Shown piece by piece: positions 7,148 through 64,000 of a stretch of DNA of 64,000 nt (positions are counted from its first letter, which is position 1; the number at the start of each line of letters is the position of its first letter). Source of the DNA: Cordylochernes scorpioides (lineage: Eukaryota; Arthropoda; Arachnida; Pseudoscorpiones; Chernetidae); assembly GCA_030710605.1 (NCBI GenBank), contig CP092877.1:39912406-39976405 (forward strand). The letters are read 5' to 3'. The position numbers were made by a program, and so were the translations under genes. A model generated the notes under the pieces. That model saw only the letters and a list, made by a program, of their open reading frames with translations. It searched no databases and was not told the DNA's origin.

Positions 7148-7327
7148 TGTAGAATAGTGTGAAATATATAAGTGATGTGAATATAAGAAAATGGAATTAA
7201 GAACAATAGACTGACGGTGTTTTGTAAACATATAATTAATCTTTACTTAAGTTAAATGTGTGTGATAAATAAATAATTAAATAATAAATATATAAGTTGT
7301 AGTTTATAAAAGATAAACAACACAACA
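7148..7327 (+). repeat. 3' LTR of the gypsy element
   Basis: 180 bp, same sequence as the 5' LTR, preceded by the polypurine tract AAGGGAGGAATA and followed by the target duplication CCCTG. Confidence 0.92.
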
Positions 7328-14300: not shown

Positions 14301-17300
14301 TGAATACCTAGTTGCAGAGCCAAAGTGTCCTTTATAAAAAGGTGTCTTCTTATTGGTAAAAATGGTAATTTTGATGGTGAAAACTGTCCTTTATATTAGG
14401 GTGTCTGCTCATGGAGGTTCTATTGTATTAGCTATATATATGTGGTGACTTATGTGACAGCTCAACAGGACAGTGTGTGTGTGTCAGAACCTGAGTGTAG
14501 GCAGTCTGGTGCTGGGAATTATCTCAGAGATCCACGAGTACACCCTCCGCCTCAGTCTCCCCAACGGACTCTCTGGGTCAGTGGAGGTGACAGGAGTCTC
14601 CCAGGCCTACTCGGAGGAACTCCACGGCATGGTTGCTGGGGATGCAGAGTGCGAGCCGGCCCCGCTGTCCAAGATATTCATGGTGGGACAGATGTTGCCT
14701 TGCTCCGTGGTGAAGGTGGCTCCTCGCATCCTCTTGACCCTCAACCCTGCTGTGGTCAATCAGGACCTCAGACCTGCCCATCTCCATCCTGGACGGGTAA
14801 GTCCCTTTTTACTTTGGTTATGATAATCATGGTGGGTAGGGAGGAATTTGCCCAACATATATAATAGTATTGTAGAACGACATTTGAAAATTATCCCGCA
14901 TGTGTTTCTTTTGAACGAAAAATCAAAATTTTATTTTAAGGAGAAATAATGATTATTTCTAACCTTAGGGATGAAGTATGATAGGATGAATTGTAAACAG
15001 TAATGATAAATGGAAAAATAATAATCCCATCCCTGGACACTTTTATTTTTCCATTACTCTTCACAATTCATCCTTTCATATTTCATCCCTAAGGTTAGAA
15101 ATAATTGTTATTTCTCCTTAAAATAAAATTTCGATTTTTCGTTCAAAACAAACACATGCTGGATAATTTTCAAATATCGTTCTACAATCATAAGCCGCAT
15201 TATATTGTATTATATATAATAGTATAATTCCTCAACTTCCTTCCCAAATAATATTCTCCGACTTCTCAATTTGATACCTCCTATAATCACATAACCTCAA
15301 TAGAGCATTAGCATTAATAATCCATAGTTTTAACTGTACTATGTAAATCAGTATTTTGCATATCTATCTCTATTTCCTACTTCTTTGTATGGATATATAT
15401 ACAGTTAAACCTGTCTAGAGCGCCTCCTCTTAGGACTCTCCAAAATAGGGTGCTATAGACAGGTCACTTTTAATGTAAATCGCATTGTGCTACGTATTTA
15501 ATATCGGGCGCTATAGAGAGGAAGGCGCTATTTAGAAGGGGCGCTATAGACAGGTTTAACTGTATATGGATTTGTTTGATTCCTAAAAAGTTTCAGTAGC
15601 GTAAATATACCCATCGAAGGGCTGTTGAGCCTGAAAGCTTGTATTGCCGATATATATAAAAGAAACTCTTTCCGCAGCGAATTGTCTTTTATTAATAATT
15701 TCCTGAAGGGATTATATAATATTAACAAGAGGTTTCTTATTGTCTATATTATGTTTACTGCTCTTGTGTCGTGCAAGCACGTCAAATTTTGAGCTTATAA
15801 GTTCCTATTTGCATATTTGCTCATATTCTCACTGGTGAGTTTGATTTGTTCAAGAATGGAGGGTTCATCAAAGCCCCCCATTTTAAAACCTGTCTCTGTT
15901 TTGTCCAACACTTCTCTCTTACAATTATAGTTCAATTGAGAAAAAAACATCTGATGTGCAATTAAAAGTTACTGATGGTTTGCGCCATCTTTCAAAATAA
16001 CTCAACTAATTTAATTATATACAGTAGAACCTCCCTGTAAAGGACACCTAATTGCAGAGCCAAAGTGTCCTTTAGAGAGAGATGGCTTCTTACCGGAGAG
16101 TTGCTAAGTAAAAATGGTAATTTTGCAAATGAAAACTGTCCTTTGTAGAGAGGCGTCCGCTAAAAGGAGGTTCTACTGTATATTACAGAATATTGTGGTG
16201 AAATACCACTACAATTTCACTTTTGTTCTAATATCTAATAATAATGGTTGAATCTATAGACTAGAACTCCACTACTATGGCACTCTAAGTTTCTTGTATA
16301 TTACCAGCTGTCGGGCAAACTCTCGAGCAAAAGGCTGGCTTCTCTTAGGAGGTCCTAACCACAACTATGCAATTTATAGCATCAACCATTTACATAGCTA
16401 ATGATTATGCAACTATTAGTGTTGGATCCTATAGTTAATAATTTCCTTAAATTCAATTTTATATATGAAAATTAAGCCAAAATATTCTAAATTCAATTGT
16501 ACAATATAAATCTTTAATATGTAAATTTTAAAGCAATCAACATGTATGTAAATTTCCAGTTTGGTTAATTAATAGTTTTGTTTTTTTTGTTTTCTCTCTC
16601 TCTCTACCACTAGTATCAAAATCTAAGTCAAATTCATGTAATCTAAATTCATGTGGTAGCTACTCATAACTCTAAAACCAAAGACAATAAAATAATTCAA
16701 GACAAGTGGCAAAGTGCTTCTTAGTATCTTTTACTGAACATTCAAGCCACGAACATTATGGTCCCTCATCGAGCCGGATACTTTAAAAAATTAAGGTAAG
16801 CCATTTGAAAACTTAAAATTCTTAAAATAAAGTCATGCCCAAATCAGAAGTTAAAATTCGGCACAAATTCAACTTTATTATTCAGGAAATAAAGGATCTG
16901 GAATCAGAGAATAAAGCTATTGTAGAATCCAAAAACATACATGGATTAAAGCTATTCCAACAAGAAGTTAATGAAAGGAAAATTAGCCTAAATCAAGTTA
17001 TCAACACATTATTAGAATCAGAGTTAGATGATACACAATATGACGATTATTCAAAGGCCAAGAAGGATATTTTTAATATGTTGGTGTCTATTGAAGAGGC
17101 TTTATCTTTGATTGAAACCAAAGAAAATACTCATAGTGATAAACAACTGCCCGAATCCAATGTTAATTTACCTAAGATAAATTTACCCATTTTCAATGGT
17201 GATTCAGCCAATTGGCTTAGTTTTAGAGAAATATTTAACTCCACCATTAATTCAAATCAAACACTAACTGAAATACAAAAATTTCAATATCTAAATGCAT

Positions 17301-20300
17301 CTGTTAAGGGTCCTGCAGAAAAGTTGATTCGGGGTTTTCCCATTTCTGACAAAAACTACCAGCAAGCATGGGATACCTTATGCAATAGATTTATTAACAG
17401 AAGAGAATTGGCTTTTTCACAAATCAACAAAATATTCTCCATAAGGCCATTAAAATCTATTTCGGCTGGTTCTCTCTATGAAATCCTTGATGTTTGCAAT
17501 GAAGGCATTAGAAATCTCTCAGTGCTAGGACTTGAGAAAAACACATTAACAGATCTAATCCTGATCAATTTTTTTGAAAAAAGAATTGGTGAAGCCCTCA
17601 GGAAAGAATGGGAATTAACCCTTCAAAATGAAGAATATCCAACATTTGAAAACTTTGTGAATTTTTTAGAAAAACATGCTAGAAGCCTGCAAGGTATGAG
17701 AATTCCTTTGTTCCAGGAACAAAAAACCTCTAGCAAAAATATAATGGCTCACGGCCTTTATGTCAACAAAGGTCAAAATTGTATTTTATGTCATCAAATT
17801 CATAAACTAAATGACTGCCATAGATTCATAAATCTTCCCTTGCCTAAAAAATGGGAATTAGTTAAAAAACATAAACTTTGTCAAAATTGCCTTAGAGCAA
17901 ATCATGAGATATCCAAATGTCTCATCACATCAAGATGTAAAAACTGCAAGCAGAACCATCATACTCTTCTGCATGAATACAACTCTGAACCATCCATTCC
18001 ACAACCAACAACCTCTCAAGAGATGTTGATTTCAACAAATACCATCTGTAATGCGATGCCTTTGGAAACGGAAACAAATATTCTACTGTCAACAGCCCTT
18101 ATTAAAGTCAAGGCGAAGGATGGCTCATTTGTGCTATGTAGAGCATTAGTGGACAATGGGTCCCAAATAAGCCTAATTTCAGAACAATGTTGCCACAAGT
18201 TGGGACTTGAAAAAAGGAAAAATTCTTATACACTAAAAGGTGTAGGAGACATTGTTGTCAACAGGACAACATCGCAGGTTGAAATAGAGTTCACCCCACA
18301 TCATAATGATCAATTATTTTCTGCCAGAGCATTTGTGGTTGGGAGGGTAACTGCAGACCTTCCAAACTTCCAAATTCAGTCAGCAGACTTTCCTCATTTA
18401 GAAAATTTGCTCTTGGCAGACCCAGAATTCTATGTCACCAAGCCCATAGACCTAATTTTGGGTGCAGATACCTTTGTAGAAATAATTCTAGGTCATAAAA
18501 CAGATTTAAAGCACCATCCTATAGCACTTAATACCAAGTTAGGTTGGCTTGTTTCTGGGAGAATCCATTCAACTATTAAGTCGAATACTTCGGTAATCAA
18601 CCACTGTACCACTGAACTTGATTCCAGCATAAGAAAATTCTGGGAACTTGAAGATGTCCCAATTTCTAAGGCCCAGTTGGGTACAAAGAATGCCTGTGAG
18701 ATATTATTCAAGTCAAATCTCAAAGGAGACATTGAGGGCAGATATTCAGTCAATCTCCCTTTTAAATCAACACCCAATTTAGGTGATTCAAGATCTCAAG
18801 CATTGGAAAAAGGGCTACAGGAAAATCCAAGTAAATCTGAAGATAATTCAAGTAAATCTGAAGAAAATCTAAGTAGATCCGAAGATAATCCAAGTAAATC
18901 TGAAGAAATTCCAAGTAAATCTAAAAAGTCACGTATCTCCAAGTTAACTCCACAAATTACTTCTAAACAAAACCAATTACTTCCTTCTGAATCAAGTCAA
19001 CCATCCACTCCAGAACAACCTCTCGCTTCTCAGTCAAGTGAACCACTCTCATCTAAGAAAGAAACTTCGATTATTCCTAAGATAAAGCCACCACCCTATT
19101 ATAGGCGAAAACGTCAACTTCCTGCTGAGAAAACTTCATGGGATGAACCAATTGAATCAGATATAAAGTCAAATTGGAATAAATTCCAAACTCAACTATC
19201 GTGCCTAAAGGAAATCAAAATACCAAGATACCTGAACAGTTCATCTTCTGAAATAGAAGAATTACAACTACATGGATTTTGTGATGCATCCCTTAATGCT
19301 TATTCAGCAGTTTTTTACTTGAAAACTAGATTCAAAAATCAAAAGATCAAAATCAATCTGATAACCTCAAAAACTAAGGTTGCACCATTAAAGACCATTA
19401 CAATTCCAAGACTTGAACTAAGTGCAGCATTGCTTTTGGCTCAACTGAATCAAGTCATTCTTGAATCATTTCCTTTTCAACCTGACAAAACCTTTTTATG
19501 GACTGATTCACAAATCTGCATAGATTGGATAAGATCAGATGCCAGCAGATGGAAGGCCTTTGTTTCGAACAGAGTGTCGTCAATTCAAAATTTGACTCAA
19601 ATCACTGATTGGTTCCATGTATCCAGTCAAGATAATCCAGCTGATTGCGCATCAAGAGGAATCATGCCTCAAGACTTGGTCAATCATAGAATTTGGTGGC
19701 GGGGTCCTATTTGGCTTCAAGAAAATAATGTTCGATATATTCCTTCTTCACCAACCCAAGTAAATCTCAATATCATTCAAGAAGAAGTCGGTGAGGGTCA
19801 AGTGTTGGATCAAACAACCTTAATTCAAAATTCAGAAACTATGTTAAATCTAGAATTCATTGTAAGGTATTCCACAATGACCAAATTGATCCGAATCACA
19901 GCTTGGTGTTGGAGATTCTACTACAATTGCCTCCTCTTTGATCCAATTCGTCAGAAAGGACCTTTGACAACAAGAGAATTAACAAAGGCAATTCAAGTCT
20001 TAGTCAAATCAATTCAGCAAGTTGAATTCTGCACGGAAATAAAATTACTGAAGTCAAACAAGCAACTACCTCTGTCCAACAAGCTAACTTCTCTAAATCC
20101 CTTCTTAGACACTCAAGGACTTCTAAGAGTTGGAGGTAGACTCAAGTATTCCTATTTAAATGAAAATCAAAAATTCCCTCTCTTACAACCAAAATCCCCA
20201 CGCCAGGAATCACTTATCAAAAATCTCTTAACTGAGAATGCCGACATTCCTGAGGCTATTGATGAGAATCAAGAAGATTCTTCAAATTTAGAAACCACTT

Positions 20301-23300
20301 TTGTCATTGAAGACGAAGAGTCTAACAAAGATATCGAGACTCCAAAGATTGAAATCTCCGAAGTTTCGGTTATTGATAAATCGGAAGGCAAATATTCGAA
20401 AGAACCAGTGGTCAGTGTAGAAGCTCTGGATAAGAAAGAACTGTGCCATGATGACTCAGCTCACCTCAATGTAGTTGAAGCTGATCTTAATCGACCTAAA
20501 GAGGCTACCAGTGGCATAATCAATGTTTATACAGAAGCTAATGAATCGTCAAGCAAAGAGAAAGTTGTACCTGTTGAAATTGTGGATACATCAACAAAGG
20601 ATTATCTACAGAGCGGTGAAAAGGCAAAATTATCCCGCTGGAAGCCCATCGATTCTCTATGCTTAGAAGACGTCAAGGAATCTGAAGACGACGATGAAAA
20701 TTACAGTTCATCGGCATATATAGAATGGCCAGAAATCTTGAAGAAAGAAGTCTTAAGACCCGAAGCTTTAGAAAAGGCAGTCAATCTGGAAGATTTTGAG
20801 AAGGCGGCAGAAAGTCGACAACTCTCCAAAGAACATTTAGAGGAATCGACCGAACAAGGCTCATGCATAAAGGCTGAATCAAAACCTTGGGAAGATCCTA
20901 TTGAATCCGACTTAGCAGCCGCAGAGTCTGATAATCCAGCAGTTCCCGAAAAAGAACTGGCCAACGAATCTGAAAATCTCATCCAAGATTCACCTCAATC
21001 GGATACTCAAAGATGGAAGCTGATTCCATTACCTTTCAAACAATGAGAAGTGTAATCTTAGCTACATAGTCGGAATCAATTAGTCCAGCATCTATACTAT
21101 TGGAACTCTTTTTTATTTTTATTTATTTTTTTTATTTTTTATTTTCTGGTCATCTCTTCCCAGCCGGGGGAGTATGTTGGATCCTATAGTTAATAATTTC
21201 CTTAAATTCAATTTTATATATGAAAATTAAGCCAAAATATTCTAAATTCAATTGTACAATATAAATCTTTAATATGTAAATTTTAAAGCAATCAACATGT
21301 ATGTAAATTTCCAGTTTGGTTAATTAATAGTTTTGTTTTTTTTGTTTTCTCTCTCTCTCTACCACTAGTATCAAAATCTAAGTCAAATTCATGTAATCTA
21401 AATTCATGTGGTAGCTACTCATAACTCTAAAACCAAAGACAATAAAATAATTCAAGACAAGTGGCAAAGTGCTTCTTAGTATCTTTTACTGAACATTCAA
21501 GCCACGAACAATTAGTATCTATTGTATTTGCATGCTGTGAATTGTATCTAGCAAAAACTAAACATGATTGAATCAAATTGAGATTAATGTTAAGAAGTTG
21601 TAGTGTGTACAAATGTTCTATATCAGTTTTAACTATTTTACACAAGTTGTGGGTACAGTAGAACCTCCCTGTAAAGAACACCTAATTTCAGAGCCAGAGT
21701 GTCCTTTAGGGAGAGGTGTCATCTTACTGGAGGGTTGCTAAATTGTAAAAATGGTAATTTTGCAAATGAAAACTTTTCCTTATAGAGGGTGTCTGCTAAA
21801 GGGAGGTTCTACTGTATTATATCTCTTGTCAGGTTCTGAACAAGCTGTGTGTGTGCAGTCCATCATGGTGGCTGTGCAGTCTGCGGAGGATCATGGCTAT
21901 GTCCTGGAGACAGGTGTACCCTGCCTAGCACTGGGAGGTACCCTGACTGGGTTCATGCCCCTCTCAGTCAGTTCCAATCTTGCTGTAGGCCAGCTGGTAG
22001 AATGCCAAGTCCAGAAACCTCCAGAAGGCAGAACGGTGAAGCTGACGTTTGCATCTAGCAATCCCTCCCCAGTGGTTCCTGAGACACCTCTGGTGGCCTT
22101 ACTCCCAGGCACAGTGATAGAATTCACCGTGACCCGAGTAGAAGCCCTTCATGGCATATACGGCCAGATGGGGACTCTGTCTGTCTGTGTGCACCGCCAC
22201 CACTGCTGGCACCCGCCCACTCACTACCATGTGGGGAAGAAGGTCCAAGGAACAGTTCTCTACATCCATGACTACACCAGACAAGTCTACGTACGACTAG
22301 GCAGCAGAGAGCTCTCCACTGCACTCCAATCCATCAAATCCGGAAAAGAAGTGAATGGGACCGTAGAGTCACTCACCTCCAACGCTGTCTATCTCCAACT
22401 GCCCAACAGCATCAAGGCCCTCGCTACCAAGAACCTGCTCAGTGATGACAAGGAGGACTTTGAGATTGCCCAGAAGTTCCGTGTTGGTGGCACCCACAAG
22501 TGTCGTGTACTCTCCATCGATCTTGTTGAAAGAATGGCTAAGGTGACCCTCAAGCCAAGTGCGCTGCGTAAGCCGTACATTGACTACCAGAACATCAAGG
22601 CAGGGGATCACTTCAAGGGAGTCCGCGTTGAGGAACAGAAGCCTTTTGGATTGATAGTCCGTATTGATGCTCACATGACTGGAATCATCAGGACCATTTT
22701 CCTCTCGGACCATCCCACTAGCAAGTCACTGGACCGCTACCCTGTAGGATCCAAACTCTCGTGCCGAGTGGTGGAAGTGAAGCCGACAGTCAACCTGCCC
22801 AAGCTGCTCCTGACCTCCCAGAAGTCCTGGCTGAGCTGGACTGGCAAAATCCCACAGAGTCTCGAGGAACTGGAGCCTGGCATGGACCTGCCAGGTACCA
22901 TTGCCCAAGTCACACCCGCTGGCCTGTTGGTGGTGACCTATTCTGGAATTCAGGTGAGTCCTACTGATTTTGAACCTTTTTATTTCCCTTTCTTTTACCA
23001 ACTTAAGGCTTATTTAACTGATTTTGGCCCTTTCCCCCTTCTATTTTGCCAATTTGAGGTGTAAGTTAATTGATTTTGTCCTTTGTTATTTTTTAAAATT
23101 CAACCAATCTCATGTTTGATAGATTTCCTTTCTTCAGTTTCCAACTGCGGCATGTCTACATGTGTTGAAAGGAGTCATGGGTGTTACAAATGCTACCCAA
23201 CATTTTTTACTCAAAGATATACTTTGACTTTTTTTGGAGAGGGGGGCGGGTTCTTTGCATTTTCTATTTCCTTTTACATTTTTTTTTGTCTGTTACTCTT

Positions 23301-26300: not shown

Positions 26301-29300
26301 TCTGCAATTAGGTGTCCTTTACAGGGAGGTTCTACTGTACTTATGTTTATTAAATATTTTTGTTGGGAATTCCCACAAATTTCTAGCTTTAAGCAGAACA
26401 GCCTACTACAATAGTAGAGCTGTCTGGCATAACAGAAACTGCTGGGAAGGTTCACCATCGAGCCAAGCCCTCCCAGTATGCAGTAGGGACAGAAAGTTCT
26501 TTTAAGAAAACAAAAGTAACACATTGTTTTAAGAACCTCAGAAATGGACAGCATCAAACAATTATAATAAGATTTAGAACAGGCCATCTAAAGTCCAAAG
26601 ATAGAAAATAACAACAAAATCTACCCCACTAGCCCTGCTCCAGAACACATTTTGGCTTGCATTAGATGCACTAAACAGGACTTTTGGGAGAGGCTGCTGC
26701 TTATCATAAAACAGCTTAAAGAGCATCAACTCATGGAATTCTTGTAATCTTTACACAAGGGGATAAGTAACAACAAATTCAAGGTAATAAGACCAAATCC
26801 AAATGAATAAATAGTGTGTGACGTTTCGGTAACAGCGTTGTTACCATCTTCAGACAAAAGTGCTGAATGAGAAAAATATCACAGCATGTTTTAAATAGAT
26901 ACTGTTTTCAAGTGTGTGAACAAGATAGCAGATCAGCACTTTTGTCTGAAGATGGTAACAATGCTGTTACGAAAACGTCACACATTATTTATTTATTTGG
27001 ATTTGGTCTTATTACCTTGTGTTTATAATCTAAATTGTGCCTTGTCAACAACAACATTAAATTGTTCATATTCTTCTACACTCATAGACATAGAATTCTC
27101 AACAGCTGTCTGTGCAGGGTAGCAGACTCCTACGTGGTCGGAGTGCTGAAGCAACATGACAAGGACCTACAAGCCAGGATCAAGGCGCAGAAAGAAGCAG
27201 AAGTTGCCAAGTAAGTAACTAGATAATGATGATGATATTGTTTTGTCTTGGATTTATATTCATTGATCCTGAGTGTCTATACCAATTCCTTTGGTTAAGA
27301 GTTTTTTTTTTACTTATTTATCAAAAGAAAGATGATACATTTTAAAATATGATGCAAAGATAAACCTAAGTGAGATAAAAAAGGTTTAAAACTAGGCTAA
27401 AATAGCACCCATGGGCTTTTTTTCTTCTCTGGAATGATATAATACTGACACTCTACCTAGCATAACTCAATTAAAAAAAAAAATAATATAAAAAAATATT
27501 AACTTTGATTATACTTAAACTAGACGAATGGCCCGGGCAACGCCCGGGTTTTACCCGAGTGCGCATATATTTTAAAAACGTTTTAATTCAAATACTATTC
27601 GTTACAATTATAAATTGGCGCCATGGATGTCACTCTTGTGAAACGTCCCGTTCCAAACTGTGTGTTTTTAAAATGTTTTAATTAAAATACTATTCGTTAC
27701 AATTATAAATTGGCGCCGTGGATGTCTCTCTTGTGAAACGTCCCGCCCCAAACTGTGTGTGTCTTGAAAATATAAAAATAAAAATGTGAATTTTCATAAA
27801 GATTTCATCATGTCGATTTTTTTTTTTGCATTTCACCTACTAAATCGATAGAGATAATTACATTTGCAACATGAACTTAGGTATATTGACTAAATAGAAA
27901 ACTGCATAGTAATAAAGATCATTTTTTAAAGGCACCATATCGTTTTTTTTTTTCAATAAAATCGAAACAAAAATTAACGATAAATAACGATAATTGCCTT
28001 AAAAAGAAATTGCCTTAAAAAAAAGAAACATTCGCGGTGATTTTGTCTTGCATTCGTTTATACAATTATTATATACGAATGACCCGGGCAACGCCCGGGT
28101 TTTACCCGATTAAATGCTTTTATTCAAATACTATTCGTTACAATTATAAATTGGCGCCGTGGATGTCATTCTTGTATAATATATAAATGAGTTTTAAAAA
28201 ATTGTAAAAAAAAAAAAAAATGCATCGGCCGGGAATCGAACCCGGGCCGCCCGCGTGGCAGGCGAGCATTCTACCACTGAACCACCGATGGTTATGAAAA
28301 ATCCCATCCGTGAGCTTCAGACAGACAAACAGACAGAATAAGGCAAATATATAAGTAGATTTGGGGCACTGAAGAAGCCCCAACTTGTGGATGATGAATG
28401 GAAGCCTGTCTTTTCCACAAGTCAAGAAACAATTTAGCCCATGTAATCAATAACTCCATATTAATTCTGATATACTCTAAATACTTTGTAAACTAACTAC
28501 AAGGTAAAACAAATGTGAAATTGTACTGGGATAAGGTGGATACATTTTAAAAAAAGTATCTCCTTATCGGGAAACTGAAAGTTACTAATGACTTGCACCA
28601 TCTATCGGAATTGATGATTTTGATAGATGGCACTAGTCAACTTTCAGTTGCACGATAAGGAGATGCCTTTTTTTATAACTATACATAATAAGACCAAATA
28701 CCCACAAATAAATTAATACAGTTGAACCTTCCTGTAAAGTACACCTAATTGCAGAGCCAAAGTGTCCTTTAGAGAGAGGTGTCCTCTTACCAGAGAGTTG
28801 CTAAATATTAAAAATGTTAATTTTACAGATGAAAACTGTCCGTTGTAGCGAGAGTGTCCTCTCTTGGAGGTTCTACTGTATAGTTCTAACCTATATAATC
28901 TCCAAAAAAAAATTTTTTTTTGTGCTTTATTATTATTCTATATTGGTCCAATAGAGATTGGGAAGTGACTCCAACAGGTCTTCAAATATGTTTGTGTCCA
29001 GGCTTAAGAAGAAGAAGAAGAGGAAAGTTTCCATTGATGAGGAGGAAGAGCAAGATGTAATTGAGGTTCAAAGGTAAGAGACATCCTTTCTTTACTTCTT
29101 CCTCATGAGAACATCACAGAATCAAGCTGAATAGATAAAATGGGATTGACTTACAGAGCCTAATAAGAGTGAAATCATTAGGCTTTTCCTGGGATAACTT
29201 TTTAAAGAAATTATTTCATTTCTCTAGCTTCTAGATATGAAAGCCCTTTCTCTTGTAGAAAGTCTTTCTTGCCTGAAATATGGAATTCTTTAAAAATAAA

Positions 29301-37438: not shown

Positions 37439-40055
37439 TATTATATTGTCATTATTAATGATATCTTTATATATAAGTTCTCCGCTCAAAAGAGGAAGCA
37501 TTAGTTTAGATTTTAAACCTCTTTCTTCCAATGTTTGTTCTATATTCCAAACCACATCTGAATAGACTAATAGAATAAATATTGAGTATTTACAAGAATC
37601 ACGAATGAATGCATATATAGATAACATCACTCTTTAATAGATGATATGAATGTTTGATTCTGTACTGTCTAGGTAGGCCATCTTGATGAAGAAACCTTCT
37701 GTGGTGTGATATCTGGTGCAGAATCCTAACTGTCTCAATCTTAACCCAACTCTCATACCCCATTCGTTATTTTATTGGGAGTTTTCTCCCTCAATATTCC
37801 AATAATACAACCCTACATTGTACCCCATTCGTCAAGTTTGAGTTTCCATTCTTGTTCTTGAAGCAAGTCTGGATCAACTCATTAACCTATAATAGTTTTA
37901 CCCCATTCGTAAAATTTGAGTTTCCATTCTTGCTCTTGAAGCAAGTCTGGATCTACTCATTCCCCTATAATAGTTTTACCCCCATTCGTAAAATTTGAGT
38001 TTCCATTCTTGCTCTTGAAGCAAGTCTGGATCAACTCATTAACCTATAATAGTTTTACCCCATTCGTCAAGTTTGAGTTTCCATTCTTGCTCTTGAAGCA
38101 AGTCTGGATCAACTCATTAACCTATAACAGTTTTTCCCCATTTGTCAAGTTTGAATTTCCATTCTTGTTCTTGAAGCAAGTCTGGATCAACTCATTAACC
38201 TATAACAGTTTTACCCCATTTGTCAAGTTTGAGTTTCCATTCTTGTTTTTGAAGCAAGTCTGGATCAACTCATTAACCTATAACATTTTACCCCTTTCGT
38301 CAAGTTTGAGTTTCCATTCTTGTTCTTGAAGCAAGTCTGGATCAACTCATTAACCTATAACAGTTTTACCCCATTTGTCAAGTTTGAGTTTCCATTCTTG
38401 TTCTTGAAGCAAGTCTGGATCAACTCATTAACCTATAATAGTTTTACCCCATTCGTCAAGTGTGAGTTTCCATTCTTGTTTTTGAAGCAAGTCTGGATCA
38501 ACTCATTAACCTATAACATTTTACCCCTTTCGTCAAGTTTGAGTTTCCATTCTTGTTCTTGAAGCAAGTCTGGATCAACTCATTAACCTATAACAGTTTT
38601 ACCCCATTCGTCAAGTTTTAGTTTCCATTCTTGTTCTTGAAGCAAGTCTGGATCAACTCATTAACCTATAATAGTTTTACCCCATTCGTAAAATTTGAGT
38701 TTCCATTCTTGCTCTTGAAGCAAGTCTGGATCTACTCATTCCCCTATAATAGTTTTACCCCATTCGTAAAATTTGAGTTTCCATTCTTGCTCTTGAAGCA
38801 AGTCTGGATTAACTCATTAACCTATAATAGTTTTACCCCATTCGTAAAATTTGAGTTTCCATTCTTGCTCTTGAAGCAAGTCTGGATCTACTCATTCCCC
38901 TATAATAGTTTTACCCCATTCGCCAAGTTTGAGTTTCCATTCTTGTTCTTGAAGCAAGTCTGGATCAACTCATTAACCTATAACAGTTTTTCCCCATTTG
39001 TCAAGTTTGAATTTCCATTCTTGTTCTTGAAGCAAGTCTGGATCAACTCATTAACCTATAACAGTTTTACCCCATTTGTCAAGTTTGAGTTTCCATTCTT
39101 GTTTTTGAAGCAAGTCTGGATCAACTCATTAACCTATAACATTTTACCCCTTTCGTCAAGTTTGAGTTTCCATTCTTGTTCTTGAAGCAAGTCTGGATCA
39201 ACTCATTAACCTATAACAGTTATACCCCATTCGTCAAATTTGAGTTTCCATTCTTGCTCTTGAAGCAAGTCTGGATTAACTCATTAACCTATAATAGTTT
39301 TACCCCATTCGTCAAGTTTTAGTTTCCATTCTTGTTCTTGAAGCAAGTCGGATCAACTCATTAACCTATAATAGTTTTACCCCATTCGTCAAGTTTGAGT
39401 TTCCATTCTTGTTCTTGAAGCGAGTCTGGATCAACTCATTAACCTATAACAGTTTTACCCCATTCGCCAAGTTTGAGTTTCCATTCTTGTTCTTGAAGCA
39501 AGTCTGGATCAACTCATTAACCTATAACAGTTTTACCCCATTTGTCAAGTTTGAGTTTCCATTCTTGTTCTTGAAGCAAGTCTGGATCAACTCATTAACC
39601 TATAACAGTTTTACCCCATTCGCCAAGTTTGAGTTTCCATTCTTGTTCTTGAAGCAAGTCTGGATCAACTCATTAACCTATAACAGTTTTACCCCATTTG
39701 TCAAGTTTGAGTTTCCATTCTTGTTCTTGAAGCAAGTCTGGATCAACTCATTAACCTATAATAGTTTTACCCCATTCGTCAAGTGTGAGTTTCCATTCTT
39801 GTTTTTGAAGCAAGTCTGGATCAACTCATTAACCTATAACATTTTACCCCTTTCGTCAAGTTTGAGTTTCCATTCTTGTTCTTGAAGCAAGTCTGGATCA
39901 ACTCATTAACCTATAACAGTTATAGCCCATTCGTCAAATTTGAGTTTCCATTCTTGCTCTTGAAGCAAATCTGGATTAACTCATCTACTTATATATTTGC
40001 CTTATTCTGTCTGTTTGTCTGTTTGTCTGAAGCTCACGGATGGGATTTTTCATAA

Positions 40056-40126
40056 CCATCGGTGGTTCAGTGGTAGAATGCTCGCCTGCCACGCGGGCGG
40101 CCCGGGTTCGATTCCCGGCCGATGCA
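40056..40126 (+). tRNA. tRNA-Gly(GCC) copy 1 in the Helitron
   Basis: 71 nt, with the same sequence as 28221-28291 (C at position 1, GCC anticodon, good boxes A and B), followed by a T run. Confidence 0.75.
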
Positions 40127-40326
40127 TTTTTTTTTACAATTTTTAAAACTCATTTATATATTATACAAGAATAACATCCACGGCGCCAATTTATAATTGT
40201 AACGAATAGTATTTGAATAAAAGCATTTAATCGGGTAAAACCCGGGCGTTGCCCGGGTCATTCGTATCTACTTATATATTTGCCTTATTCTGTCTGTCTG
40301 AAGCTCACGGATGGGATTTTTCATAA

Positions 40327-40397
40327 CCATCGGTGGTTCAGTGGTAGAATGCTCGCCTGCCACGCGGGCGGCCCGGGTTCGATTCCCGGCCGATGCA
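40327..40397 (+). tRNA. tRNA-Gly(GCC) copy 2 in the Helitron
   Basis: Identical to copy 1, 271 bp downstream. T run follows. Confidence 0.75.
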
Positions 40398-40596
40398 TTT
40401 TTTTTTACAATTTTTAAAACTCATTTATATATTTACAAGAATGACATCCACGGCGCCAATTTATAATTGTAACGAATAGTATTTGAATAAAAGCATTTAA
40501 TCGGGTAAAACCCGGGCGTTGCCCGGGTCATTCGTATCTACTTATATATTTGCCTTTTTCTGTCTGTCTGAAGCTCACGGATGGGATTTTTCATAA

Positions 40597-40667
40597 CCAT
40601 CGGTGGTTCAGTGGTAGAATGCTCGCCTGCCACGCGGGCGGCCCGGGTTCGATTCCCGGCCGATGCA
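40597..40667 (+). tRNA. tRNA-Gly(GCC) copy 3 in the Helitron
   Basis: Identical to copies 1 and 2, 270 bp after copy 2, followed by a longer T run. Confidence 0.75.
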
Positions 40668-42269
40668 TTTTTTTTTTTTTTTACAATTTTTAAAACTCAT
40701 TTATATATTATACAAGAATGACATCCACGGCGCCAATTTATAATTGTAACGAATAGTATTTGAATAAAAGCATTTAATCGGCTAAAACCCGGGCGTTGCC
40801 CGGGTCATTCGTATATATAATTGTATAAACGCGAATGTTTCTTTTTTTTAAGGCAATTTCTTTTTAAGGCAATTATCGTTATTTATCGTTAATTTTTGTT
40901 TCGATTTTATTGAAAAAAAAACGATATGGTGCCTTTAAAAAATGATCTTTATTACTATGCAGTTTTCTATTTAGTCAATATACCTAAGTTCATGTTGCAA
41001 ATGTAATTATCTCTATCGATTTAGTAGGTGAAATGCAAAAAAAAAAAAAATCGACATGATGAAATCTTTAATTTTCAAGACACACACAGTTTGGGGCGGG
41101 ACGTTTCACAAGAGAGACATCCACGGCGCCAATTTATAATTGTAACGAATAGTATTTTAATTAAAACATTTTAAAAACACACAGTTTGGAACGGGACGTT
41201 TCACAAGAGTGACATCCATGGCGCCAATTTATAATTGTAACGAATAGTATTTGAATTAAAACGTTTTTAAAATATATACGCACTCGGGTAAAACCCGGGC
41301 GTTGCCCGGGCCATTCGTCTAGTTAACCTATAATAGTTTTACCCCATTCGTCAAGTTTTAGTTTCCATTCTTGTTCTTGAAGCAAGTCGGATCAACTCAT
41401 TAACCTATAACAGTTTTACCCCATTCGTCAAGTTTTAGTTTCCATTCTTGTTCTTGAAGCAAGTCTGGATCAACTCATTAACCTATAACAGTTTTACCCC
41501 ATTTGTCAAGTTTGAGTTTCCATTCTTGTTCTTGAAGCAAGTCTGGATCAACTCATTAACCTTTAACAGTTTTACCCCTTTCGTCAAGTTTGAGTTTCCA
41601 TTCTTGCTCTTGAAGCATGTCTGGATCAACCCACTAACCTATAACAGTTTTACCCCATTCGTCAATATTAGAGCCTACAAGAGTTCCCATCTGCTTCTTG
41701 AGAATCGATTTGGCTAAACTTCTTTAACCCGCACAAAAATCAACCTTACTTCTACCTACCCCATTAGTCAACTTTAAAAGTTTGCATGATGTTAGAAACA
41801 ACCTGAATTGAATCCAATATAATTACCTTTCACATCCATTCAACCTTTTTGTTAGTTTTAAGTTTCCATGCTGGCTTTTAAACTAGCATAAAAGATATTA
41901 TCCTATGTATTATTATACAAGGTCATGAAGACTATGTTGTTTCTTATCTATTAGGTGATTTTTTTCTCTTATATACATATCTTTCTGGCAAACTCATCCA
42001 TTTGTATTTTGGTCAGAGGCTTGGCCTAGCTACTTTGCCAGCTAAACACCTATTTGGAAAATTATAATAATTTCATGATTTCCATATAGATCTCAAATCA
42101 AAGTCTGCCAAGGCCTGACGAGGACCATTAGTTCAAAACTATGGTCTCCAGGTGGTGCTCAGAATTTGAAAAGCTGGGTTCTTGTCACTAACTCATTTGT
42201 TTTTATGAAGGAGGTGATATTTATTTTATATAGATTTAAATATCCACCTGGAAAATTTCATCTATATAC

Positions 42270-42860
42270 TCTAGATTCTTTGTGGCCTTCCATAATATAA
42301 GACTACCTCAGGCATGAATAAAAGTTTATTTGGTCGTAGGTGTTAGCTTCTGATAATTTGTGGTGGTCCTTAGTAAAAGGCTATGGAAGGTGTGAATACA
42401 AGGTTTTTGGTTGTAGGTGCTATATTCTAGGTAGTTCGTGGTCTACCATGATACAAGGCTACAGCAAGCATGAATAAAATTTATTTGGTTGTAGGTTGCT
42501 TTCTTCTAGGTAGTTTGTGGTCTTCCATGGTACAAGGATACGGAAGGAGTGAATAAAAGTTTATTTGGTTGTAGTTGCTATCTCTTCTAGGTAGTTTTTG
42601 ATCTTCCATGGTGCAAGGATACAGAAGGCGTGAAAACAAGTTTATTTGGTCGTAGTTGCTATCTTCTAGATAGTTCTTGGTTTTCCATGGTACAAGGATA
42701 TGGGAGACGTGAATGCAAGTTTATTTGGTTGTAGTTGCTATCTTCTAGGTAGTTCGTGGTCTTCCATGGTACAAGGATACGGAAGGCGTGAATAAAAGTT
42801 TATTTAGTTGCTAGTTTGAGAGGTCTTCCATAGGAAAAGGCTGACAGAAGGCGTGAGTAA
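42270..42860 (+). repeat. 79-bp tandem repeat (about 7 units)
   Basis: Units of about 79 bp such as GTGAATAAAAGTTTATTTGG, TTGTAGTTGCTATCTTCTAG and CTTCCATGGTACAAGGATAC. Divergence is higher at the left end. It adjoins the 3' end of the minus-strand DEG/ENaC gene. Confidence 0.88.
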
Positions 42861-51710: not shown

Positions 51711-51934
51711 ATGGCGAAGCAGACTCATGAAAGAAAGATGCAGCCTATTGTAATCAAATCAACGATCGGCCCAGCTGGCGAAAAGGTCAGTACAATCGAA
51801 ACCAACATACTTTTGAAAATTCTTGAAAGATGTGGCATCGAGTACAAAGTAGAAGAAACTCCTCCAACAAAGAAACGACCTCGCGAATCCCCATCAGATT
51901 CAACATCACGTAGCCAAAAGACACCGATAATGGN
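51711..51934 (+). CDS. N-terminal fragment of an unknown ORF, cut by the gap
   Basis: ATG in a CGATGG context opens 74 codons without stop before the Ns. The peptide has a helical segment (IETNILLKILERCGI), then a basic, Ser/Thr-rich part (PPTKKRPRESPSDSTSRSQK). This resembles N termini of LINE ORF1 or gag proteins in composition only. Function not recognised. Confidence 0.35.
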
Positions 51935-52033
51935 NNNNNNNNNNNNNNNNNNNNNNNNNNNNNNNNNNNNNNNNNNNNNNNNNNNNNNNNNNNNNNNNNN
52001 NNNNNNNNNNNNNNNNNNNNNNNNNNNNNNNNN
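51935..52033. other. Assembly gap (99 Ns)
   Basis: Run of N. True distance and adjacency of the flanks are unknown. The right flank starts inside copy 2 of the long duplication. Confidence 0.99.
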
Positions 52034-55701: not shown

Positions 55702-57879
55702 TTAGTTGATTCTATTTCCTCTGAGTCTGTCTAGATTTTCCGCTAGAATGTCTCCTAGAATACTTAGAAGTTTTACAAGTGATTGGCCTATATGAAAGAC
55801 TGAATTTAAGATGGAATTTCCTATATGAAAGACTGCCTCTTGCAGCTGGAAAATTCTATGAGAGGATAGGGTATAAATTAACATGTGAACGATGAATAAG
55901 AATGGGACGAACCCATAGGGTAGAGATAGTAGACAAATAACAAAAATCAGATGGAAGATGGGGTATCGACGCATCTTCTCCCATATAGGTGCTATAAATT
56001 GTGGCTCTGGGATATCTATTTGGACCTTCTTTATTTGTGGCTGTTCAATGTCGCACTTCTTGTTATCGTTGGAGAATGGCGTGGATCGTTTTTTGGACAA
56101 AATGGTAGGATTTAAATGATTGTCAGGTTTGCAGTTCGCCTGTTTGGTGGTTAATGGTTTTGTTAAAGATATGTCGGTTATAGGTGATTTAAGTGGAAAT
56201 GTGCAATCGTTTCTCTGTAAATTTGTTATTGTTTGTTTTGTGTGTGTGGTATGTTTGGTGTACGAATTTTGTCTTATTTTGTGGGTGGTATCGGTGTCTT
56301 TTTGGAAAGGTTGATTGGATTCATCGATACTTCTAGCGAATCGGCAGGTGGGACAGGTTTTTACCTGTTTTGCAATGTCTTGTGTCATGTTCTGCCAATA
56401 ATATTGTGAAGAGATGAGTCTCGTCATCTTTGAGATGTTTGGATGGTGATGTTGGGTATGGACGGACTTAAGAAGTCTGGCTGTGAGTGAATTTGGAACT
56501 ATAGTTTTAGTTACACCTTTTCGGGAGACGGTATGCAGTCCATTGTGATCCATAGTCAAGCAAAATTTTCCCGATGGGGAAGACTGATGGCTCTTTATCA
56601 GTGACGCATCTAAAAAGCCACAAAATGGGATACGAGTTACAACGCCCGTTTCATGTTGTTGTACTCCATTTATGCTACGGACCTCATATTCGTATCTTGA
56701 CAGCCTTAATCTCCACCGAAACAATCTGCCTGACGGGGCTTTGATCCCTTTCAACCACTGCAATGCGGGATGGTCAGAAAGTATTGTAAACTTTCTGCCC
56801 ATTAGACAGGCGCGAAAATTATCCACACTTTCCACAATGGCTAGGCATTGTAGTTCCGAGTTTGAATAACCTCGCTCGTGAGCACGCAGAGAGCGGCTGA
56901 AATGCTGGACTGTGTATGTCTTCCCATCAGGGTAGACCTGTTTGAGAACGCCTGCAATGCCGAGTGTTGAGGCGTTACAGTACACCTGGCATGGCAGACC
57001 TTCCTGGTAAAGGTGTAATGTGGGGTGTGTGGTAAGGCTTTCTTTCAGGCTAGTGAACGCCTTCTGGCATTCGTCATCCCAGACCCGCATGACATCCTTT
57101 TTTAGAAGGTTGACAAGTGGCGTCCGCAAGCGGGCGTGGTCTTGAATGAACTTTTTATAAGCGTTCACAGCGCTTAGGAAAGATCGCAATGTTTTTCGAT
57201 TGTGTGGTTGTTTGGTGACGTGAATTTTTTCTATGTTTTGTGTAGACGGGATGGTTGTGTTATTAATGGTTGTGCATGTGTTTGCTTGTTGTTGTCGTCT
57301 TTTGGTGCGAGTGTCGTGCTTGTTGTGCTGGTTGTGCGTGTTACCGTTGTGTGACGACGTATGGATGCGTGTGTTTTTAGTGTGAAAGCCGTCCTGTTGG
57401 ATGGATATTGTCTGTGTACTGTTGTTAGTGTCATGGTTGTTGCGGTGTACACGTGCGTGATTGTTTTGGGACGCAGTGTGGTTACTTATGAGCTTGGTGT
57501 GGTAGTTGTGCGAGCTGTCCTGTGGGATGGATATTGTCCGTGTACTGTTGTTGTGAGTGTCGTGTTTGTTGCGGTGTACACTTGCGTGATTGTTGCGTGA
57601 CGATGTGTGGTCACTTATGAGCTTTGTGTGGTAATTGTGCGAGCTGTCCTGCTGTATGGACATGTTTTGGGCATTGCGGTTGTAAGTTGAAGCCGTTGTG
57701 GCTTTGTTATTTGAGGGCATATAGTAAGGACAATTGGCTTCAGTAAAACAGTTGTGTGGTGCGTGATTAGACTGGCATGGTGTTTTGGTCAATGGATGCA
57801 CGCAATGGTTGTCTTGTGCGGAAAGTTTGGGTGCAGTGCAAATCCTTTGGGACATTTTTGACATACCCAGTACGTGCAT
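55702..57879 (-). CDS. 725-codon ORF: repeat region, RNase H, integrase zinc finger, membrane segments
   Basis: Minus strand, uninterrupted. Residues 1-225 are Asn/His/Thr-rich with imperfect repeats of QDSSHNYHTKLIS, standing where the RT palm should be; no YxDD is present. Residues about 230-430 match the end of RT and RNase H of Ty3/gypsy elements (LRSFLSAVNAYKKFI, AHERGYSNSELQCLAIV, TILSDHPALQWLKG). The first catalytic Asp is replaced (YCNAST instead of xTDAS). Residues 470-515 carry the integrase H-H-C-C finger (HTQHHHPN ... CPTC). The integrase core is missing. Residues about 630-665 are strongly hydrophobic, which may be an envelope remnant or chance. Defective for replication in cis. 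Confidence 0.8.
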   Translation of the reverse strand: MHVLGMSKMSQRICTAPKLSAQDNHCVHPLTKTPCQSNHAPHNCFTEANCPYYMPSNNKATTASTYNRNAQNMSIQQDSSHNYHTKLISDHTSSRNNHASVHRNKHDTHNNSTRTISIPQDSSHNYHTKLISNHTASQNNHARVHRNNHDTNNSTQTISIQQDGFHTKNTRIHTSSHNGNTHNQHNKHDTRTKRRQQQANTCTTINNTTIPSTQNIEKIHVTKQPHNRKTLRSFLSAVNAYKKFIQDHARLRTPLVNLLKKDVMRVWDDECQKAFTSLKESLTTHPTLHLYQEGLPCQVYCNASTLGIAGVLKQVYPDGKTYTVQHFSRSLRAHERGYSNSELQCLAIVESVDNFRACLMGRKFTILSDHPALQWLKGIKAPSGRLFRWRLRLSRYEYEVRSINGVQQHETGVVTRIPFCGFLDASLIKSHQSSPSGKFCLTMDHNGLHTVSRKGVTKTIVPNSLTARLLKSVHTQHHHPNISKMTRLISSQYYWQNMTQDIAKQVKTCPTCRFARSIDESNQPFQKDTDTTHKIRQNSYTKHTTHTKQTITNLQRNDCTFPLKSPITDISLTKPLTTKQANCKPDNHLNPTILSKKRSTPFSNDNKKCDIEQPQIKKVQIDIPEPQFIAPIWEKMRRYPIFHLIFVICLLSLPYGFVPFLFIVHMLIYTLSSHRIFQLQEAVFHIGNSILNSVFHIGQSLVKLLSILGDILAENLDRLRGNRIN

Positions 57880-58812: not shown

Positions 58813-59514
58813 TGTGGGAACACGGGTGCAAAATGTTTTGAGTTGATTGATAATTGTTGAAGGTGTTGGCGCAGTCGTTGATGCTGAGTGGTCAGGTGTT
58901 TACAACAGGGGAAAATAACGAGGACAAAGGGTTGATTGGGTTGGAAAGAGGCTTGCAATCTAGGGAGAAGAAGGAGTTTGAGGAATTGAGCGAAGTTGAC
59001 TAGCGACTATTCTATTGCATGATTGAGTATTTGACTTATCTGAAGGGTTGAGCGGATGAGGATGACTCCAAAGTGGTCTCAATCGCGGCGAGCTCCGGAC
59101 TCGATGGTGTCCAAGATCCAACTCGATGCTAACTCCAGGTGCTAACTCGATGGTGTCCAAGATCCAACTAACTATTCTGTGTTCTCGATTTAAGAAGAAA
59201 ACTCTTCTGATTGCTCATTGGCTGACCATTCGTGACGTGTAAGCTCGCTATAGGTCCTTGACTAATGAGCTGCTTTCTGGTTGGTCTTTGCTAATTTCTT
59301 TGTCCTTTGGACTTGTTCTGACTTGACCAGGAAGTACTAGTTTCTTGAACTCAACTTTTATGAGTTCCGGGATAATAAAACCCTGCTAATGATTGTCCTC
59401 TTCTAGGCCTTCTCTCTCCAGATTGTTAAGCCTTGTTCTTTATTAAATCTTGTAAAACATACATTTCATACATATTGGGTCGGGTTTGCATCTAGCTATG
59501 TACAAATTATGACA
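58813..59514 (-). repeat. Right LTR (5' LTR in element orientation)
   Basis: 702 bp; same ends as the left LTR but one fewer copy of the GTGCTAACTCGATGGTGTC-type internal repeat. Confidence 0.9.
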
Positions 59515-60254
59515 TACATATGCATTAACCCAGCTACGGGAATAGATTATGTTGTCCAGGATCTCAGCAACTTTGTTGTCCACTTCCACAAGCACAGTTT
59601 CTGTGCTCTGCGTTGCGTTTCTTGGAGCGATGGACCTCCTTGATTGATTATTTGCCTGGATGGTTGAAGACAGATGCTGTCGCAAATTTTCTCATCTTGA
59701 ACGTCTTTGTCTACCCTAAAAAGGTAGAATCTTGGGAGGATCTTAGGACGTTCATGGAAATTAGTCCCTCAGGAGTGTGGATAGCTTGGTGGCGAACAGT
59801 TTTGCCCTTTGAGTTTTAATATGGAAGACCACATCGCTCACAGGCTTTGTTTTCTTCGCCGCAACTGAGGCATATGGGGTGTGAGGGTTTATGACACTTC
59901 CAGTAGGTTGGGGTTGACTTAGGCTCGCGCCTTTGAAGACATCTTCCAGAAGGAGCTCTGCTTTCTTTGCAAAATTGAGAAGCAAAGCTTTGATAGCCAG
60001 GTGTCTTTTCTAGGGGGGTTTAGGTTGGAGTTCACAAGGATAGGTTCAAAAGTTCCACACGAAAATTTGTAAAGGTTGTTTAGGTTGTTGAACTTAAACG
60101 TGTGCTTGGAAGATGAGAGAGATTCACCTTCTTCACAGTAGGGACGCTTTTTTTTGGTGTTTGGCTACAGCTGCCATGATAATTTACCTCCATATTTTCT
60201 TTCTTTTCAACTAATTATTTACAACTAGAGAGAGATTATGCAGCTGTATTTTGT

Positions 60255-61263: not shown

Positions 61264-62824
61264 GTAGATATTTATACCCAGGTTCCTGGAGCGCAGAGCG
61301 CCAAATACCCTGGTCTTTCTTGTATGTGTGTTTCTTGCTAAGTCTGATAGAATTTTTTATTTAAAAACCAATCTTGGCACTAATATCGCTTTATTGACCA
61401 ACTTTTAATTTTCGGAAAACTAAAAATTTGATTCTTCATTCTAGAAAATTGGAAAACTAAAATAATAAAAAATAAAAATAGCCTATTAATATCAATTTTT
61501 CATAGCTGTAATAATTAATGCACTTTTAATTGCGAAAACATATTTTATAAATTAAAATATTCAATTATTAAAAAAATTAACTAGTCATTTAAAAAATATT
61601 ATTAAATTAAGTTTTCTATGAAATCGCTCTTTTTACTCTGTTTAAAATTGAAAATAAAGAAAATAGTTGACACACTTGCAAGCACGTGTTTATAAATAAA
61701 GCATTTTTAAAAAATATTTTATCAAGATCCCATTTTAAAAAGGCAAGTTTTGTTTTAAAAATAAGTTTCCGTGGAGGGGTATAATTGCTATTTTTTAGGA
61801 ATTACAATAATAAATACCAGGAACCTGGTAAATTTGATCTACATACATTAATATTTTAAAAATAAATAACACTATATTTTTAAACAACATTTTTATTCGG
61901 TTTTGAAGTACTTAAAAATTTCATGAGTCATTCAGGGGAGAAACATGTTTCAGGCTGTTGGACCTCATCAGCATGGTGTATTTTTTATTCACATGTATTA
62001 ATATATAATCAATATATACTAGAAATTGTCATGTATCATGATTATAATAAGTATTTTATTTTTTAAATTATCCCATTATATCAATTATACAAGGTCATGT
62101 AGACTAAATTCATAGATCAAATTCACAATCTTGTTAGGGTTGGAATACAGGTCCTGTCCTGAGGCTTCCATACATTCCAAGAGGTGGTCTGGTGAGGCCT
62201 CTTTGGTCCTTTAGATAGTGTATTGTGGGAAGATCTTCACACTATCCTGGAAGAGGAGTGGTCTTGTATGACCAGTTTTGAGCATGGAGATATAGGTTGC
62301 TGCTTGTCGGTTCATCCCACATTCTAGAATAGCTCCAGGCTTTTGGTTCAGGTACTAATGATGGGATGTCGACTTCTGTATTTTATATATATTGTATAAT
62401 AAGTATATATATATATATATAAACTTCAACATGCCAGCTTTGCTGTGATTATGTAATCTTACATAAGAAAATTAAGTTAAAGGAGAGTCAATTAGAACCC
62501 AGGCAAGGCCCAAGCAACCATCGTCAAGATTATATCAGACATGGAAATTTCCTGGGTATTACTTGGGGAGATTCTTAGTATTCATAGTAGTAGTATATAT
62601 TGACTATGTATTACTACATCTTTAAGAAGAAATCAAAGTTTACGGCGACAAGTTTCTTTTATTTGTGCTGTATAATCGGCAAGCTTTCGGACTATGGCGT
62701 CCTCAACAGGCAACTATCCAAGAAACTAGAAGATAATATATATGTATACACGTGAATATTTATATAATTCTAAATTTTCTTAATGAAATAAATGATCATA
62801 CAAATATGTAATTACATGTATATA
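61264..62824. other. AT-rich part of the duplicated segment, copy 2
   Basis: Matches 2745-2789 and then 7333-8844 with scattered substitutions and small indels. No coding sequence recognised. Confidence 0.6.
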
Positions 62825-64000
62825 CAGTAAAACCCCTCTATAGTGAACCCCAATGGGACAGAGCTTTTGGTTCACTATAGCCGCGGTTTGGCTATTTTTT
62901 TTACTTTTCAAATTTTTAGACCGTATAATTAAAGGACGGCCATACACACAAGAAGAGACTGCCTTTTTTATAGTGGTTACTTTGTATTAATTCCCATAAT
63001 TGACCTATTTCCTTACATTAATACTGAATAATAATAGAAATCATTAGATGATAGATTCTTCTTATCATTAACATACATGTACCTCTATGTCTAATTTAAA
63101 AATAATGACAAATCCTAGGCAAAGTTTTAATAAATATATATTCAAAGATATAAAATGATTTTAAAACATTATTATCACATTATATAATACAATGTTTACT
63201 TGAAAAAATGGCTCTAACACCTTGTTGCTTCAAAGCATTCTTCAAGCATTGCACCATTCAAATAAAGTTAGTGTTTTTCTTCCATTTCATGTTTCCACAT
63301 ATTCTTCAAGGTCTAGATTTCGTTTTTTAACCTGTCATGCAAAACATTTCTGACTTTAAAAATCACCATAGTTAATGGTATAAAAATGTTTGTTTCATCA
63401 CGGGACCGTTTATTTGAACTTTTTTTTTTAGCCCTAAAACGTACGATCGCAGCAAAAGTTGGGGTTGATTCCTCTTTGTAACAATTTTTAATAGCTTTAT
63501 ATTTTATCTTTTATAATAGAAAGGGTATATTCTCTTATTTTAATATGTTCTTAACATTTTGCCTGTGTTGTTTCACTTTGAAAAGTTCTGAAAATGGCCT
63601 TTTTTAAAAAAGAAATATCACTTTGGTTTTTAAAATGCCTTTGTTTTCTTCATTTTGGAAGCCATTTGCATTTTTTATATTTCAAATTTAATGGATGCAA
63701 AGATATTATATTTAATAAAAAAGTATAATGTGTAAAAATTTATACAACATACAGCAAAAATAAAGTGCAAAAATCTCAAAACAAACAATGCCGCTAAATT
63801 TATTGTTTTGAAATCGCGATCCGCGAGCAGAAACATGCTCAAAATTTTGTTGTTTTAATTTTTTTTTAAATTACAATTCTAAGTTTGTTATAAGCATAGT
63901 ATTTTTAATAGATTTTATCATTTTGGGACCGAAAATAGGTTCGTTAAAGGGGTAGTTCGTTATTCTAAAAATCGCAAAGTTCGTTATAACAATGGTATTT
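62825..64000. mobile_element. Nonautonomous pogo-like element, second copy, cut by the window edge
   Basis: Same element as 8845-10094, beginning CAGTAAAACCCC after TA. The right terminus lies beyond the window. Confidence 0.75.

Follow-up and report, generated by a model that had tools for sequence, protein, structure and literature searches.

Two elements, A and B, in a 64,000-nucleotide stretch of the genome of the pseudoscorpion Cordylochernes scorpioides (assembly GCA_030710605.1, contig CP092877.1, positions 39,912,406 to 39,976,405; this whole stretch is the window in the following) are, as judged from their sequence, very probably two insertions belonging to one young family of non-autonomous Helitrons, in which tRNA-Gly(GCC) cargo is carried with the family's 5' end on one side and a copy of its 3' end on the other. 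This high confidence refers to a Helitron with tRNA cargo; the step that brought the tRNA genes into tandem is graded separately below. tRNA gene families vary in number and place, but the route is seldom caught, and the locus shows one route with exact ends: with one tRNA gene in B and three in A, the same rolling-circle transposon would be moving and multiplying tRNA genes. Copy B, the tandem units, in which 5' ends and hairpins recur, and the repeated 3'-end modules are additions to a first-pass annotation of this DNA. As there is a second insertion with the same ends, and as the tRNA units are bounded by the transposon's 5' end, the finding is stronger than first noted.

Ends and target sites of the two elements

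The elements, their surroundings and their 3' ends are located as follows (window coordinates):
39984..41322, + strand: probable Helitron copy A, 1339 bp, TC...CTAG, A|T insertion within the satellite
37821..39983, no strand: 78-bp satellite array, upstream side of A, used as empty-site controls
41323..41665, no strand: 78-bp satellite array, downstream side of A, in phase
41082..41271, + strand: 3'-end module of A, two tandem 95-bp copies, of which the second alone continues into hairpin and CTAG
41294..41310, + strand: terminal hairpin of A, 12 nt before the CTAG end
27520..28359, - strand: probable Helitron copy B, 840 bp, TC and CTAG ends as in A, A|T flanks, one tRNA
27532..27548, - strand: terminal hairpin of B
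41323-41334 (+) and 27519-27508 (-): 12 bases after CTAG with 9/12 agreement, a possible extended target preference

The two flanks of element A form a single 78-bp satellite array that the element interrupts. A opens with TCTACTTATATATTTGCC at the boundary ACTCA|TCTACTT (39983/39984) and closes with GCCCGGGCCATTCGTCTAG at GTCTAG|TTAACC (41322/41323). When the satellite flanks were joined, the spacings over the junction were 78 and then 77, the array's own range being 77-79. The view that A splits a satellite unit between A and T, as put forward in the first-pass annotation, is hence supported by exact boundary coordinates and by a period that is kept on joining the flanks. No direct repeat adjoins the ends of A, in agreement with the earlier statement that the target was not duplicated. 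The neighbouring satellite units, which had been proposed as empty-site controls, served this purpose well: sites with up to 3 substitutions from AACTCATTAACC numbered 35, of which 31 remained after exclusion of the occupied site and of 3 look-alikes within A, and the identical empty site AACTCATTAACC is present in 27 of these 31 units (TACTCATTCCCC in 3 and AACCCACTAACC in 1).

The best confirmation of the Helitron assignment is copy B, which has the same termini as A and lies about 12 kb apart on the opposite strand. B is flanked by CCCCAAA|TC and CTAG|TTTAAG, which again is A|T without duplication, and its 5' flank matches that of A at only 6 of 20 bases (18 of 40 on the 3' side). The structural features of Helitrons that can be examined in sequence were found in A and again in B with its different 5' surroundings, namely TC/CTRR ends and a palindrome of 16-20 nt about 10-12 nt from the 3' end in both copies, A|T insertion without duplication in 2 of 2 copies, and dispersed copies with the same termini, two of them in the window. 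An inverted repeat is found just upstream of B at 28537-28685; its 47-nt arms are 81% complementary with a nested 23-nt pair, and it is MITE-like (miniature inverted-repeat transposable element) or a foldback.

The 5' TC, the 17-nt hairpin and the CTAG of A, all noted earlier, were recovered. The terminal hairpin CCCGGGCGTTGCCCGGG has a 7-bp stem and a 3-nt loop and stops 12 nt before the last base, and the distance between hairpin and CTAG end is likewise 12 nt in B. Hairpins with a perfect 7-bp stem (at least 6 G/C) and a 3-nt loop occur six times in the window, and all six are within A and B. A 27-nt motif around the hairpin also has 6 occurrences in the window (0.00 expected from shuffles), and the core of the 3' module, GGCGCCAATTTATAATTGTAACGAATAG, occurs 8 times with zero mismatches (5 in A and 3 in B; 0.00 expected). 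The terminal hairpin of A folds with -9.2 kcal/mol (z -1.7) and that of B with z -2.2, while the internal hairpins of units 1-3 of A reached z values of -2.9 to -3.1. The placement of the hairpins is stronger evidence than their folding energy. The hairpin pattern had 0 matches in viral contigs, and the 3'-module pattern had 0 matches in prokaryote genomes. Six IMG/VR stretches that match the 18-base 5' end were rejected as chance matches, as they share a common unrelated flank, diverge directly after the 18 bases, and in no case contain the hairpin motif.

The tRNA-Gly genes and their tandem units

The tRNA genes and the units in which they lie are as follows:
40056..40126, + strand: tRNA-Gly(GCC) copy 1, C1:C72 mismatch
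40327..40397, + strand: tRNA-Gly(GCC) copy 2
40597..40667, + strand: tRNA-Gly(GCC) copy 3
28221..28291, - strand: tRNA-Gly(GCC) of B, identical to the copies of A
40127..40135, + strand: T9 run after tRNA 1, resembling an RNA polymerase III terminator
39984..40266, + strand: tandem unit 1 of A, with 5' end, tRNA-Gly, 3'-end-like module, hairpin and CATTCGTA
40267..40536, + strand: tandem unit 2 of A
40537..40813, + strand: tandem unit 3 of A, which runs on into the element body
28074..28359, - strand: sole unit of B
40241..40257, + strand: internal hairpin of A in unit 1 (further ones at 40511-40527 and 40788-40804)
28083..28099, - strand: internal hairpin of B

ARAGORN and Rfam (RF00005, 59.5 bits each) both recognized the three identical tRNA-Gly(GCC) genes described earlier for A, and the one in B, as 71-nt tRNAs with the anticodon GCC, and all four are identical. 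T-runs of 9, 9 and 15 follow copies 1-3 of A, and a run of 15 follows the tRNA of B. Boxes A and B had been assigned to each tRNA. The B box GGTTCGATTCC is indeed exact, whereas the strict A-box pattern had no match in the tRNA, and there is only the stretch TGGTTCAGTGGTA, which we take to fit a looser A-box form. The tRNAs are intact except for the first acceptor pair, which is a C1:C72 mismatch in all four. Arthropod tRNA-Gly(GCC) generally has G1 and is otherwise the same as these tRNAs. If the other tRNA-Gly genes of the host have G1, the C1 of all four copies could tag transposon-borne tRNAs in small RNAs. Folded alone, the tRNA reached z -1.0, and 30 of 200 shuffles folded equally well, which is unremarkable for its composition. 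Across the 270 ungapped columns of the four units, 3 sites vary, all of them outside the tRNA. As this pattern has P = 0.40 by chance, the identity of the tRNAs says nothing about selection.

The three tRNAs of A lie in tandem units of about 270 bp, each of which opens with the Helitron 5' end and stops 9 nt past its own terminator-like hairpin. The unit tails share about 80% identity over 116-119 bp with the true 3' end of the element. Both internal junctions in A are identical, CATTCGTA|TCTACTT, with a left boundary of the following unit that is exactly the element terminus, and in unit 3 and in B CATTCGTA continues into the body (TATATA...). A therefore has three 5' ends (TCTACTT) and one CTAG end, which is the arrangement of a multi-5'-end array. 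Unit 2 shares a short TGTC tract with unit 3 and T9 with unit 1; private differences are substitutions in units 1 and 3 and a 1-nt deletion in unit 2.

Apart from indels, the body of A differs from that of B by 1 substitution over about 490 aligned positions, not counting the first 38 alignment columns; these columns are gapped and ambiguous and contain 10 further mismatches. The single substitution indicates that the movement was recent. In view of the differences between the bodies, neither element can be the unchanged progenitor of its counterpart, and more copies of the family probably exist.

Known Helitrons and the origin of the array

Capture by Helitrons and arrays with several 5' ends are already known. 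Helibat/Helraiser of bats has in common with A and B the 5' TC, the 3' CTAG, a hairpin 11-12 nt from the end, and A|T insertion without duplication (PMC4778049). In Helraiser, the 3' hairpin is a terminator whose bypass transduces downstream DNA (read-through capture), TC and CTAG are joined in the circles, and insertion is preferentially into A|T (PMC4778049). In contrast to that system, the cargo here is a tRNA gene and the element contains no transposase; the word tRNA is absent from the main text of the Helraiser paper (PMC4778049). Hel1 and Hel2 of insects and two spiders are arthropod Helitrons with TC/CTRR ends and a 3' hairpin as found here, a likeness in the described type of ends (PMC6544945). 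Stepwise sequence acquisition is reported there for Spodoptera frugiperda, and the word tRNA is absent from the main text of this paper as well (PMC6544945).

Plant Helitron arrays in which several 5' ends share a single 3' end, credited in a recent review to Xiong and colleagues (2016), have been attributed to rolling-circle faults (PMC12628747). A resembles them with its three 5' ends and single CTAG end, but its units each carry a terminator-like hairpin and a tRNA gene, and the host is an animal (PMC12628747). The closest case is the tRNA-Cys cluster on Arabidopsis chromosome 5, which overlaps Helitron annotations and consists of tandem units of about 0.42 kb with one tRNA gene each; it was proposed to represent short Helitrons with a captured tRNA, amplified through failed termination (PMC10701932). 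None of three Helitron-finding programs made a reliable prediction across these genes, and the parts of that paper considered here show no insertion (PMC10701932), whereas in the present window two insertions have exact ends and an empty site is available. Among the open-licence papers listed in our searches, this is the one close work in which tRNA cargo with precise insertions had appeared, as an unproven possibility (PMC10701932). The locus would show in an animal what the 2023 Arabidopsis paper could only propose, a non-coding RNA gene carried by a Helitron (PMC10701932).

Several points weigh against our interpretation. The terminal hairpin of A has only a modest advantage over shuffles in folding energy (z -1.7), and the comparison of four units gave no indication that the tRNA is constrained (P = 0.40). 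The copies known are two, both within the 64-kb window. Neither A nor B contains an open reading frame (ORF) of at least 150 aa, and no RepHel protein was found, although a transposase was not sought genome-wide; six-frame pieces of A and B had 3 short weak matches among 240 proteins, with nothing usable. The internal junction follows the hairpin by 9 nt at CGTA instead of by 12 nt at a CTAG, and the unit variants are also compatible with plain unequal crossing-over. Finally, the self-BLAST alignment of A and B continues for 12 bases beyond CTAG, with 9 of 12 matches. The first-pass annotation had stated that copies running past TC or CTAG, or copies with duplicated targets, would speak against a Helitron; in this sense, B is free of a duplication but shows a likeness past CTAG. 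Of the other A|T sites in the window, 10,872 in all, only 27 show an equally good match to the first 12 post-CTAG bases of A. As these bases are satellite in A, we do not read them as element sequence, and the likeness may reflect a target preference, or chance picked post hoc, and not a longer element.

With regard to the origin of the array, we infer that a captured tRNA gene would have become part of a small TC-tRNA-hairpin element that lost its CTAG or never made use of it. Read-through in transposition may then have extended to another, CTAG-bearing 3' end and thereby added the filler body; the internal 3' module, the filler, and the two additional modules close to the true end would be accounted for in this way. 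The TC end of A would have been rejoined at CATTCGTA|TC, directly behind the internal hairpin, and then repeated, so that the array came to have three tRNAs and three 5' ends with a single 3' end. We favor faulty termination at the internal hairpin in rolling-circle transposition, possibly followed by unequal exchange, and movement would require RepHel in trans. The repeated 5' ends with their fixed junction would in this case be a natural read-out of Helitron termination faults.

The strongest alternative rivals the tandem step only and explains the trimer in A by nested insertion and ordinary recombination. A full copy would have inserted into the A|T after the internal hairpin of another copy, body exchange would have removed the excess, and unequal crossing-over would have led from 2 to 3 units. 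This agrees with the A|TC junction, which matches the other insertions, and with the body at that point, which reads CATTCGTA|TATATAATT and thus offers A|T as a target, followed by AT-rich sequence on the 3' side. In its 5' part the middle unit resembles unit 3 and in its 3' part unit 1, as expected of a trimer that arose from a dimer, although this chimera signal depends on fast-changing simple repeats. However, two or three steps are required, and no intermediate with a second CTAG is present. We consider nested insertion somewhat less than an even bet. With two copies only, our preference for the termination fault over recombination is little better than even.

A further reading is that the tRNAs are functional and feed the tRNA-Gly pool of the host, and that the element was kept or spread through them. 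The cloverleaf found by two programs, the B box, the T-runs and the identity of the copies are in line with this, and 1 of 4 genes of the Arabidopsis tRNA-Cys cluster was expressed at a low level and apparently aminoacylated (PMC10701932). However, the other 3 of 4 Arabidopsis genes were not transcribed (PMC10701932). In the present copies, moreover, identity is accounted for by youth (P = 0.40), C1:C72 leaves the first acceptor pair missing, and the folding energy is unremarkable (z -1.0), and from the sequence we regard a function as rather unlikely. The far-reaching version is a mobile tRNA-gene amplifier, in which the internal hairpin would make rolling-circle transposition stutter, single jumps would deliver tandem arrays of transcribable tRNA-Gly(GCC), and the host's tRNA-Gly number and a tagged C1 isodecoder would be set by transposition; this version is equally doubtful.

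As the window has a 100-N assembly gap (51934-52033) and many repeats, it was in principle conceivable that the three-unit array is an assembly artefact. We rejected this as very improbable, since units 1, 2 and 3 differ from one another by private changes and the array is more than 10 kb away from the gap. Terminal inverted repeats are absent, the ends of A being unrelated, and no subterminal inverted match within A is better than one of 9 nt of A/T. Helentrons (Helitron2) insert into T|T and have subterminal inverted repeats; such an element was rejected, as both copies are at A|T and A lacks a convincing subterminal inverted repeat. Short interspersed nuclear elements (SINEs) have the tRNA at the 5' end, a 3' tail and a target duplication, and although a tRNA promoter within a short repeat is typical of them, a tRNA-derived SINE or another non-Helitron element is hardly credible here, as the tRNA starts 72 nt inside unit 1, no target was duplicated, and two precise insertions with TC/CTAG ends, hairpin and A|T target contradict it.

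Other features of the window

Further mobile elements and repeats were observed in the window. A BEL/Pao ORF (16835-21046) lies between two 336-bp direct repeats (16420-16755 and 21175-21510) that are 100% identical, which looks like a complete and very recent insertion of a long terminal repeat retrotransposon. Among the best 120 matches in each case, this ORF is up to 99% identical to Cordylochernes scorpioides proteins over residues 1-480, and a Tc1-like ORF is up to 94% identical to proteins of this species, with unnamed or other-species hits at no more than 69%. Both matches agree with this species as the source. A neighbouring ORF in the window has RRP5-type S1 domains; among 7999 scored candidates no match to an RRP5-like ORF was obtained, probably as full-length RRP5 falls outside the length filter.

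The 1.16-kb segment 52034-53195 directly after the 100-N gap (51934-52033) is 99.4% identical to 670-1832, and 58813-59838 is related to parts of both. A 2.7-kb repeat with 97% identity is present at 7324-10007 and at 61304-64000, where it reaches the window end. Two tandem arrays were also found, one at 42310-42818 with a period of about 79 bp and 79% matches, and one at 57387-57687 with a 129-bp period, which overlaps a gypsy-like ORF on the minus strand.

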